From the NCBI GenBank assembly GCA_902386555.1, contig CABMJJ010000009.1, positions 275,680 through 339,679 on the forward strand: a DNA stretch of 64,000 bases, in the 5' to 3' direction. The translations under genes and the position numbers were made by a program. This stretch comes from Candidatus Bilamarchaeum dharawalense. GTDB taxonomy: Archaea > Micrarchaeota > Micrarchaeia > Anstonellales > Bilamarchaeaceae. Below are positions 30,523 to 47,762 of this stretch, in pieces (positions within the stretch are counted from its first letter, which is position 1; each line of letters starts with the position of its first letter). Below the pieces are notes generated by a model. It did no database searches and had not been told where the DNA came from. It saw nothing but the letters and a program-made list of their open reading frames with translations.

Positions 30523-30587
30523 TCAGTCCATATCTTGAACGACGAATCGTTCAAGAGAGTATTGAAACGCTATGCGTTTCAATCCAT
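30523..30587 (-). repeat. Twin-hairpin palindromic element at the thermosome 3' end with flanking imperfect direct repeat
   Basis: Hairpins CTTGAACGA-CGAA-TCGTTCAAG (30534-30555) and ATTGAAACGC-TAT-GCGTTTCAAT (30561-30583); flanks TCAGTCCAT (30523-30531) and TCAATCCAT (30579-30587), both reading ATG GAY TGA on the gene strand. Confidence 0.85.
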
Positions 30588-32228
30588 TCCCATGTCACCC
30601 ATGCCGCCTGGACCACCTGGTGGCATTCCGCCTCTACCTCCTCTTGAACTGATTATATCATCAATTCTTAGGATTAGTCTTGCGGTTTCAGTTGCAGAGA
30701 CAATGGCTTGTTTTTTGACCTTTGCTGGCTCAAATACGCCAGCTGCTTTTAGATCAGCAACTTTGCCATTAAGAACGTCAACTCCAACGGTTTTACCCGT
30801 TGCTTCTTTGTGTTTTGTTCTAAGGGCAACGATGGTATCGATAACATCCATACCTGCATTTTCTGCCAAAGCTCTTGGAATGGATTCCAATGCTTCTGCA
30901 AATGCCTGAATGGCAAGCTGTTCTCTGCCGCCGATGTGGGTTGCGTAGTTCTGGATTTCTTTGCTGATTTCCATTTCCACACTGCCACCACCAACAACGT
31001 ATTTACCATCCTGCAATGCACTGGCAACTGCGCCACGGGCATCAACAACTGCTCTTTCGACTTCACTGACAACATGGTCAGTTCCGCCGCGAACAAATAC
31101 AGTAACGGATTTTGGATCTTTGCATTTTTCTACAAAAACCATTGCTTCGCCGGATATTTTTTTCTCTTCAACAAGACCAGCATGACCAAGGTCTGCTTCT
31201 TTAAGATCTTCAAGTGTTGAAGCAATAACAGCGCCAGTTGCACGAGCAAGTTTTTCCATATCGCTTTTTTTGACTCGTCTTATTGCAGTGATTCCTTTCT
31301 TTGCAAGGAAGTGCTGGACCAAATCATCGATGCCTTTTTGACAGAAGACAACATTTGTCTTGGCAGCTACGATTTTATCCACCATATCTCTCATCATTTT
31401 CTCTTCCTGGTGGAGGAATGCTTCCATCTTGTCCGGAGAGGTTATTTCGATTTTGGCATCGGTTTCTGTTTTTTCGATTTCAAGCGCTGCATCCAGAAGA
31501 AGGATTTTGGCATCCTTAACACTCTTTGGCATACCTGCATGAACTACTTCTTTGTCGACCAATACACCACGAATAAGTTCGGTATCAAGAACTTCTCCGC
31601 CTGCTTTCTTTTCGATTTTTATAAGATCAAGATCAACTGTTGTTTTACCGTTTTTTGTTTCAGCAACCTGCATGACTGCTTCAGACATTAGGACGGCTAT
31701 TTTCTTCTTTTCATCATCATTTCCAATACCTTTTGATCCCATGGAAACAAGCGCAATTTTAACTAAAATTTCCTTGTCAGTTGGTAAAACTGGTTCGGAT
31801 ATTTTTGCAAGTGCTTCTTCTGCTTTCTTGGCAGAAAGTTCATACCCCTTAATGATTACGGTTGGGTGTATGTTTTGATCTAAAAGTTCACCTGCCTTTC
31901 TGAGTAGATTACCAGCGATAACTACACTGGTGGTAGTACCATCACCAACTTCCTTGTCCTGGGTTTTGGCAACTTCAACCATCAGCTTTGCAGCTGGATG
32001 ATCAACATTCATTTCTTCAAGAACGGTTCTACCGTCGTTTGTTATTACAATATCGCCCAAATCAGAAACAAGCATCTTGTCCATACCTTTTGGACCAAGG
32101 GTAGTCTTGATTATGTTGGCTACTGCATAGCCGATTGCAATGTTAATTCTCATTGCATCTCTTCCAATAACTCTTTGAGCCCCTTCTGGGAGCACATAGG
32201 TTTGTTCGCCACTTACTTGTTTGCTCAT
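30579..32228 (-). CDS. Thermosome (group II chaperonin) subunit
   Basis: [43 protein letters not shown]-terminal [17 protein letters not shown]. Confidence 0.95.
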
Positions 32229-32236
32229 AGTTACAC

Positions 32237-32287
32237 CTCATTAAAATTCCCATTTTAATAAAGTAAAAATGCTACTGCATTTTTACA
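32237..32287 (-). repeat. Two hairpins in the thermosome 5' leader: ATTAAAAT-TCCC-ATTTTAAT and GTAAAAATGC-TACT-GCATTTTTAC
   Basis: Direct reading, immediately upstream of GAGGTG Shine-Dalgarno-like sequence and ATG. Confidence 0.7.
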
Positions 32288-32461
32288 CCTCTACACTGAG
32301 TATAGTTTTAGACTATCAAAATGAGTTGAGATGTGATATGTATCAAAAAAGTTTAAAAAACTAGCTAGTTTTGGATGTTGCACCAGTAGTGATGGGATTC
32401 GACTTAGGAATAAACAAAACCAAAGAACTAAAACCTTTTGAGTTAGAGTATACTTGTATCG

Positions 32462-32492: not shown

Positions 32493-33812
32493 ATGGATTT
32501 GGGTAAAAAACTTAGAGAAGCGCTAGCCAAGCTTACTAATCGTCCCTATGTTGACGAAGATGATGTAAGAGCGCTTATCAAGGATTTGCAAAGAGTTTTG
32601 ATCTCCTCTGATGTCAACGTAAAGCTAGTTTTTGGATTATCGAAAAAAATTGAAGAAAGAGCACTCAAATCCAAGAAGATGGAGGCCCTGACACTCAAGG
32701 AACATGTTACCAAGATAGTATATGAAGAATTGGTTTCGTTGATGGGCCAGAGTTATACTCCACGGTTGGATAAACACAAAATTTTGATGTGTGGCCTTTA
32801 TGGGAGTGGAAAAACCACTTCGTGCGCAAAACTGGCTCATTTTTACAAAACCAGAGGATTGAGTGTTGGACTTATTGCAGCTGATACGGATAGACCCGCA
32901 GCTCAAGAACAATTGGAACAACTGTCCAAGCAGGTAGGTGCAGCCTATTACACTACCAAAGGAGAGAAGGTACCATCAAAAATTGTATTAGAAGCTCTGA
33001 AAAAAGCCAAAGAAGACGTGATAATAGTTGATTCTGCGGGTAGAAGTGGATTGGACGGAGCATTGGTTGAAGAATTACGAAATATTGCAGATGTTCTTAA
33101 GCCAGAAGAATGTTATTTGGTTATTAGTGCAGATATTGGTCAGGTTGCAGGAAAACAGGCAACAGAATTCAATGCAACAGTTCCACTTTCAGGGGTTTTT
33201 GTAACTAAAATGGATGGTTCTGGAAAGGGGGGCGGTGCACTCAGTTCGGTTGCCGCATCCAATGCAAAAATTTCTTTTGTAGGCATTGGAGAAAAACCAG
33301 GAGATATTGAAGTTTATAATTCTGAGAAATTCGTAGGTAGATTATTGGGTGTTCCAGATATTGGGGCATTGATGGAAAAGATCAAAGAAATTTCAGAGGA
33401 AACCGACCTTAAAAAAATCGAAAGTGAAGAACTCACCATAGAATCTTTTTATGAACAGTTAAAGGCAGCCAAAAAATTAGGGCCGTTGAGCAGTGTTTTT
33501 TCCATGATCGGAGCTGTTGATGTGCCAAAGGAAATGGTCCAGCAAAGTGAAGGTAAATTGAAAAAATTTGAATCCATGATAAACTCCATGACAAAAGAGG
33601 AGAAAAAGGATGCTGCTTTGTTGAAAAATAATGCTGCCAGAATAGCAAGAATTGCAAGGGGAAGCGGCTCCAGTGAAAAAGAAGTTCGCGAATTTTTATC
33701 TCAGTTTGAGAAGATGGAAAAAATGATGAACATGTTCAAGAAAAACCGCGGATTCCGTAAAAAAATGGAAAAAATGATGTCGGGAAAGCAGGGCTTTCCC
33801 GGAATGAAGTGA
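32493..33812 (+). CDS. srp54: Signal recognition particle protein SRP54 (C-terminus apparently truncated by an insertion)
   Basis: GLYGSGKTTSCAKLAHFYK, DTDRPAAQEQL, DSAGRSGLD, TKMDGSGKGGGALS, Met-rich C-terminus. Confidence 0.95.
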   Translation: MDLGKKLREALAKLTNRPYVDEDDVRALIKDLQRVLISSDVNVKLVFGLSKKIEERALKSKKMEALTLKEHVTKIVYEELVSLMGQSYTPRLDKHKILMCGLYGSGKTTSCAKLAHFYKTRGLSVGLIAADTDRPAAQEQLEQLSKQVGAAYYTTKGEKVPSKIVLEALKKAKEDVIIVDSAGRSGLDGALVEELRNIADVLKPEECYLVISADIGQVAGKQATEFNATVPLSGVFVTKMDGSGKGGGALSSVAASNAKISFVGIGEKPGDIEVYNSEKFVGRLLGVPDIGALMEKIKEISEETDLKKIESEELTIESFYEQLKAAKKLGPLSSVFSMIGAVDVPKEMVQQSEGKLKKFESMINSMTKEEKKDAALLKNNAARIARIARGSGSSEKEVREFLSQFEKMEKMMNMFKKNRGFRKKMEKMMSGKQGFPGMK

Positions 33813-33837
33813 ACGTTGCGACGTTCACAACATGAAG
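33804..33837 (+). repeat. Palindromic insertion TGAACGTTGCGACGTTCACAAC flanked by direct repeat ATGAAG
   Basis: ATGAAG at 33804-33809 and 33832-33837; in-phase SRP54 tail continues to TAA at 33874-33876 if 28 nt are removed. Confidence 0.85.
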
Positions 33838-33932
33838 GGCGGGATCCCAGGAATGGGAGATATGAAAATGGGATAATTATTGTGCAAAGCCAATCAGAAA
33901 CAATTATAAACACTTTTTAACACAATAACTCC

Positions 33933-34538: not shown

Positions 34539-34807
34539 AGTGAGGGGTAGGTAGCCAACCCTAGTATGGGGAGGAAGTTCTGCCCTCTATGAGGATAATT
34601 GAGCTTTAAGGGCTCGGGAGTGCTACAGAAACGATACCTTTTTGTTTAAAGGGGCGCTGCCCCTTTGGAACCCTGCTGGGTGTGGGGTGTCCCCACAAAC
34701 AAAAAAAGGATGCAACGCGTACTCCTTTATCCAGTGACAGAGTAAGGCGAATTATCGCCGCTTAGTCAAATGCTACCAGATACAAAAGGCAGACTATTCC
34801 CCTCACT
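34539..34807 (+). ncRNA. rnpB: RNase P RNA
   Basis: 9-bp P1 pairing AGTGAGGGG (34539-34547) / CCCCTCACT (34799-34807); GAGGAAGTTCTGCCC (CR-I-like); GTGCTACAGAAACGATACC (CR-II-like); downstream GTAAGGCGAATTATCGCC and AGATACAAAAGGCAGACTATTCCCCTCAC. Confidence 0.75.
34648..34700 (+). repeat. GC-rich composite palindromic element within the apparent P12 helix of the RNase P RNA gene
   Basis: AAAGGGGC-GCT-GCCCCTTTGGAACCCTGCTGGGTGTGGGGTGTCCCCACAAAC, flanked by CCTTTTTGTTT / AAACAAAAAAAGG pairing. Confidence 0.8.
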
Positions 34808-43792: not shown

Positions 43793-43870
43793 TTTGTGGG
43801 AACACCCAACGGTTGGGTTTCGAAGGGGCGATGTTGCGAACGAAGCGTCGTTCAAGGACATCCCCTTCAA
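43793..43870 (-). repeat. Composite GC-rich palindromic element carrying a TGAACG...CGTTC palindrome in its first loop
   Basis: Minus strand: TTGAAGGGGATGTCC[TTGAACGACGCTTCGTTCGCAACATC]GCCCCTTCGAAACCCAACCGTTGGGTGTTCCCACAAAC; alignable to 34648-34700. Confidence 0.75.
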
Positions 43871-47697: not shown

Positions 47698-47762
47698 AAT
47701 GCGACCGCCAGAACGTCGCAACGTTCTGTGGTCAATTGAAGCGAGGCTTCAATGCGACCGCC
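47698..47762 (-). repeat. Twin-hairpin palindromic element at the tRNA-Gly 3' end with 12-bp flanking direct repeat AATGCGACCGCC
   Basis: Repeats at 47698-47709 and 47751-47762; hairpins AGAACGT-CGCA-ACGTTCT (47710-47727) and ATTGAAGC-GAG-GCTTCAAT (47735-47753). Confidence 0.85.

Follow-up and report, generated by a model that had tools for sequence, protein, structure and literature searches.

SRP54, an essential gene for protein export, ends in this uncultured archaeon inside a 55-nt insert that is very likely a copy of a mobile-type palindromic repeat family, its new C-terminus tolerated because the tail of SRP54 is short and variable in the genus. The window analysed is the whole stretch of 64,000 nt (G000:C9:275680-339679, strand +) from an assembly of 1.27 Mb that is 88% complete; records of the nearest named relatives carry the names Candidatus Micrarchaeota or Candidatus Iainarchaeum. 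As it stands, the SRP54 reading frame runs from 32493 to 33812 on the plus strand and encodes a protein 439 aa long that matches all three Pfam SRP54 domains and whose last ten residues, SGKQGFPGMK, derive from the insert. The initial annotation had the frame end at a TGA within a palindrome and ATGAAG occur twice, and both observations are borne out: the stop is TGA 33810-33812 within GTGAACGT-TGCG-ACGTTCAC, and ATGAAG is found at 33804-33809 and again at 33832-33837.

In relatives from the same genus, EKMM or EKML joins directly onto the tail (L009, EKMMKGGIPGMGDMKMV; L010, EKMMKGGIPGMGDMKVV). The closest relative found (L115, protein 90% identical) aligns base by base up to 33779 and then diverges, with homology returning only at 33873. 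Because relatives run from EKMM into the tail and the L115 alignment breaks after 33779, the insert is 55 nt long and occupies 33780-33834 (+; TCGGGAAAGCAGGGCTTTCCCGGAATGAAGTGAACGTTGCGACGTTCACAACATG) between ATGATG and AAGGGC; the corresponding empty allele would read ATGATGAAGGGC. Placement at 33777-33831 is equivalent, ATG being present on both sides, and this 3-nt direct repeat (left 33777-33779, right 33832-33834, +) is the only one at the true ends. The earlier proposal of a 28-nt insertion with a 6-bp target duplication of ATGAAG is ruled out. A 28-nt version leaves SGKQGFPGM in place, a stretch encoded by hairpin 1 and the linker that is missing from every genus relative in which the tail was read, and the first ATGAAG lies inside the insert, with its final G as the opening base of hairpin 2 and the rest in the linker. 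A search for relatives ending at the same TGA found none. The L115 sequence is a 2.4-kb contig binned as 'Nanoarchaeota' (JAHJDK010000014.1) that is probably misbinned and belongs to the genus of the window genome.

The insert is palindromic, as first annotated, but contains two hairpins. Hairpin 1 (CGGGAAAGC-AGG-GCTTTCCCG, 9 bp) lies at 33781-33801 (+) in the predicted fold and is followed by the linker GAATGAA at 33802-33808 (+; ACTGTC in the family version) and by the 8-bp hairpin 2 at 33809-33828 (+), which holds the stop codon. Both hairpins are perfect. The 101 nt around the insert have a folding z-score of -4.4, and no shuffled sequence was equally stable, which places the structure well outside chance.

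The element shifts the frame by +1, giving SRP54 ten new codons and TGA; the old tail persists downstream as a relic without translation. The sequence 3' of the insert, AAGGGCGGGATCCCAGGAATGGGAGATATGAAAATGGGATAA, translates to KGGIPGMGDMKMG* (33835-33876, +). Comparison of SRP54 3' ends found similar tails in L009 (KGGIPGMGDMKMV) and L010 (KGGIPGMGDMKVV), upholding the original idea of a palindromic insertion that changed the C-terminus and left a readable relic. Since most differences between the relic and these two tails are synonymous, the insertion is young on the scale of the tail's rapid turnover; L115 by now carries another tail (EKMMQGGNVNLPNM*, read by eye). The truncation is mild, thirteen residues having been exchanged for ten.

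The relic is so well preserved that its continued translation may still be conceivable, and two rival explanations start from this point. If the stop codon is used the protein ends in GFPGMK, whereas splicing or ribosomal bypass would run it into GGIPGMGDMKMG. Introns in archaeal protein genes are known, and the insert could be one that is cut by the splicing endonuclease at a bulge-helix-bulge so that full-length SRP54 with the old tail is still made; the tail past the insert is indeed intact and near the L009/L010 version. However, the predicted fold of 33780-33880, inspected by eye, combines closed hairpins with an internal loop that is symmetric (AA/AA). A bulge-helix-bulge calls for a 4-bp helix set between two bulges of 3 nt, and the absence of this geometry led us to reject such an intron. 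Splicing would moreover be pointless for most copies of the family, which lie outside genes, and unnecessary for the other coding copies, which are in frame, making this explanation highly improbable. Programmed bypass as in T4 gene 60 would have the ribosome leave AAG before TGA 33810 and land on AAG 28 nt further on, aided by hairpin 2. The AAG codons match, the stop directly follows the take-off codon and a stable hairpin occupies the gap, but the matching codon falls within the variable linker of a dispersed repeat, the arrangement is seen in no other copy and bypass is functionally unneeded where the tail varies among relatives. We give it very little credence. Splicing and bypass would each explain the intact relic, but neither gained positive support and, judged from sequence, they fail on geometry or parsimony.

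The initial annotation implied a one-off event, but the insert belongs to a repeat family with dispersed copies. When the genome was searched for the palindrome, near copies recurred and a reversed control pattern gave none. The segment C3:50752-50799 resembles both hairpins of the insert (80% over 49 nt, E 6e-5), and hairpin 2 with loop variants was found again on contigs 3, 8 and 9. A scan for two hairpins with an ACTGTC-like linker returned 19 places in the genome and 1 in the reversed genome. With a covariance model built from five copies, including that in SRP54 (model match 33774-33838), about 20 copies were found in the genome, each place counted once. The matches outside the training set include C7:25214 (E 9e-18), C8:8513 (2e-15), C9:306204 (1e-12) and C9:98008 (3e-12). 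Copies are 42-60 nt long and the family consensus is ATGGCAAGAAAGC-loop-GCTTTCTTG-ACTGTC-nTGAACG-loop-CGTTCAn-(G)ACA. Three further copies lie in the window: one at the thermosome stop codon (30525-30590, -), a derivative single-hairpin copy (43820-43864, +; model E 0.004) whose arms GAAGGGG..CCCCTTC are common with the full copy C9:433864, and a weak copy at the 3' end of tRNA-Gly (47698-47762, -; model E 0.006). A one-off local event or an assembly error could be invoked since the insert comes from a single assembly and local template switching can create palindromes. Nevertheless, several contigs and other, separately assembled genomes contain the two-hairpin unit, its linker and ends matching, and there is only a minute chance that such an accident, rather than a mobile repeat, accounts for the insert.

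Most copies in G000 are located between genes or at stop codons, and the stems of the family covary strongly. In 60 aligned copies, 94.9% of stem cells were paired, and double changes occurred in 15 of 16 pairs, amounting to 195 cells compared with 46 expected, a signal that was destroyed by sliding the partner; this alignment was fitted to the model and therefore favours structure, but the margin is large nonetheless. Location and covariation are both consistent with a functional structured RNA, such as a 3'-end stabiliser, a terminator or a protein-binding site, that is selected near gene ends and of which one copy ended up inside SRP54. Rfam contains no curated covariance model that matches the family, however, and both orientations are seen among copies at gene ends. 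Covariation can also be obtained by template-switch correction of imperfect palindromes.

The distribution among relatives also bears on this explanation. Matches to the covariance model occurred in 20 of the 43 genomes of the taxonomic family, at 0 to about 26 per genome, with 24 in G004, 26 in G024 and no match in six fellow members of the genus; these counts are approximate and include some double hits on opposite strands. The patchiness among species of one family, the two orientations and the in-frame copies inside two coding genes speak against a functional 3'-end RNA as the main reason for the family, and we consider that explanation improbable. Different loci in G004 and G024 carry copies that resemble each other at about 90% over 100-170 nt, often with extra hairpins. 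The outer arms GTGACCGAAGAGACCCC are common to the multi-hairpin copies L184, L202 and L208 from G024 and G004, which are of different genera, and this suggests exchange between species.

Three coding insertions were documented, including that in SRP54. A model match at C9:520699 falls within a metallophosphoesterase-like gene, and eleven relatives lack 14 residues at this site, corresponding to a net in-frame insertion of 42 nt. In G004, the match L203 falls within an NAD-dependent epimerase-like gene where relatives have TATGG-GAAAAAACTTGC and G004 has TATGG-57 nt-GAAAAAACTTGC, in frame and with ATGG at both ends. Both genes were named by eye from conserved motifs. The SRP54 insertion alone is out of frame and does little harm because it lies near the gene end.

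By eye, the ends of the listed copies are ATGG- and GACA-like. Direct repeats of 4-17 nt, usually beginning with ATG, border several copies, most clearly C9:228991 (ATGGCAAAAAACTAGAG / ATGGCGAAAAACTAAGG, each of which codes for the gene end MAKN*), the thermosome copy (ATGGATTGA / ATGGACTGA, both MD*), C7:190088 (ATGTCATGA / ATGTCATAA, both MS*), L206 (ATGACAAAAA on both sides) and the weak tRNA-Gly copy (12 nt, GGCGGTCGCATT, at 47698-47709 and 47751-47762). Since both repeats at gene ends encode the end of the gene, the duplication preserves the original C-terminus. Exact direct repeats were not in general excess in the flanks of 49 copies, and a uniform target duplication was rejected; the excess appears only in register. 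Comparison of the 5' end of the element with the sequence after its 3' end gave likeness above mispaired controls (mean, P 0.005) and more strong matches (P 0.03), P values that are optimistic as the test was devised after inspecting the copies. An outer stem of at least 6 nt was enriched (31% versus 15%) and was rejected as a constant part of the family since it is not universal.

The left repeat serves as left arm of hairpin 1, whose right arm is accordingly the complement of target sequence. For the copy in the metallophosphoesterase-like gene, the left arm (GGAATTGAT) is the stretch that codes for the conserved GGI(E/D). Such complementarity can mean templating at insertion or later template-switch correction of an imperfect palindrome, an established type of mutation (PMC7202029). 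As the arms may come from either process, covariation alone does not prove a selected RNA. It is possible, though we would not call it likely, that the element builds hairpin 1 from its target, the left arm being target sequence (a portion of the direct repeat) and the right arm a reverse complement made during insertion; the truly mobile core would then be only about 30 nt (ACTGTC - hairpin 2 - GAC). Signs of this are seen in the metallophosphoesterase copy, C9:228991 and L206, and none in the SRP54 copy. If correct, insertion would follow a new mechanism, for which fold-back template switching is one possibility.

We infer that the family is non-autonomous mobile (selfish) DNA. The insertion in SRP54 is itself observed; the route would be an enzyme encoded elsewhere or template switching. 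The hairpins probably act as single-stranded DNA structures and could be substrates for such an enzyme or sites of template switching at the replication fork. The element would enter ATGG-like sites and in the clearer cases leave direct repeats of 4-17 nt, and the SRP54 copy would persist given the short and variable tail behind the signal-peptide-binding domain. Searches for Y1_Tnp (PF01797), RVT_1, Resolvase and DDE_Tnp_1 gave no match in G000, which is 88% complete, and across the 43 genomes none of the Y1, reverse-transcriptase, serine-resolvase and DDE_1 families correlated with copy number. PF01797 is also missing from the incomplete assemblies of the high-copy G004, G001, G026 and G031. 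Mobilisation of the IS200/IS605 type was rejected because G000 lacks Y1_Tnp and the sole linkage is a Y1 fragment on G024 contig 97, with a copy about 400 nt away. Reverse transcriptase, serine recombinase and DDE_1 enzymes were likewise rejected as mobilisers on their absence from G000 and the lack of correlation with copy number. In an isolated case, about 230 nt separate the copy G031:C105 (L267 2266-2331) from a reverse-transcriptase gene; eight other reverse-transcriptase loci examined have no clear copy nearby.

Two adjacent hairpins, no coding capacity and many dispersed copies are also the features of mitochondrial double-hairpin elements from fungi and sponges (PMC2800124). Like these, the archaeal elements are short and gene-less with at least two tandem hairpins, are mostly intergenic and also found in genes, are unevenly distributed among close relatives and have arms that differ by compensating changes. 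Unlike them, they are chromosomal, have a conserved ACTGTC junction and ATGG / GACA ends, and in several copies have direct repeats; the likeness is structural only and spans different domains of life. Rickettsia palindromic elements are found in frame within protein-coding genes (PMC10969869), as are two copies of the archaeal family. They are about 150 bp long, and nearly half of those reported are in coding genes (PMC10969869), whereas the archaeal copies are 42-60 nt, lie mostly outside genes and in SRP54 are out of frame. REP/RAYT systems (PMC3733652, PMC3116915) resemble the family in being small dispersed palindromes near gene ends, often paired. By the tests run, the archaeal family is not one of them: G000 lacks a Y1 (RAYT-type) transposase, direct repeats occur at some ends and, by eye, no GTAG/CGTC tag of the REP type was seen at the palindrome foot in the listed copies. 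Like MITEs, the archaeal elements are non-coding and multicopy; some of them end in direct repeats, and some G004 and G024 copies have outer inverted repeats. In the archaeal family, however, internal hairpins dominate and checks of four enzyme families found no parental transposon.

The family is thus apparently an undescribed one of a known general kind; the literature searched contained no description of it in these archaea, and one may exist elsewhere. In an archaeon with a small genome, a dispersed hairpin repeat enters coding sequence, even the C-terminus of a universally conserved gene, editing protein ends and adding in-frame loops. Numerous copies, direct repeats and relatives with precise empty sites open the long-standing problem of how gene-less hairpin repeats spread to testing in archaea. 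Caution is warranted in annotating such genomes, where stop codons and C-termini may derive from elements.

Other features were observed in and around SRP54. Shortly downstream is an archaeal RNase P RNA gene (RF00373, E 2e-26; window 34540-34806, +). In G012:C80, G019:C29, G026:C140 and G029:C155, several hundred inserted residues interrupt SRP54 in frame near residue 108, in the P-loop region; these are probably inteins. A different double hairpin, GGTGTAAAAATGC-loop-GCATTTTTAC-TTwAT-nAAAAT-loop-ATTTTnAT-RAGGTG, recurs just upstream of start codons, in the window at 32232-32289 (-) and elsewhere in G000 at C9:412492, C9:341497, C2:21838, C2:22194, C7:66846, C7:31644, C10:979 and C11:73132-73300. 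The thermosome copy has no match in Rfam. This motif is a candidate 5'-leader RNA motif; the genes behind it include those for thermosome, S6e, aIF5A and Alba and an FtsZ-like gene, and it is conserved 5' of SRP54 in L115.
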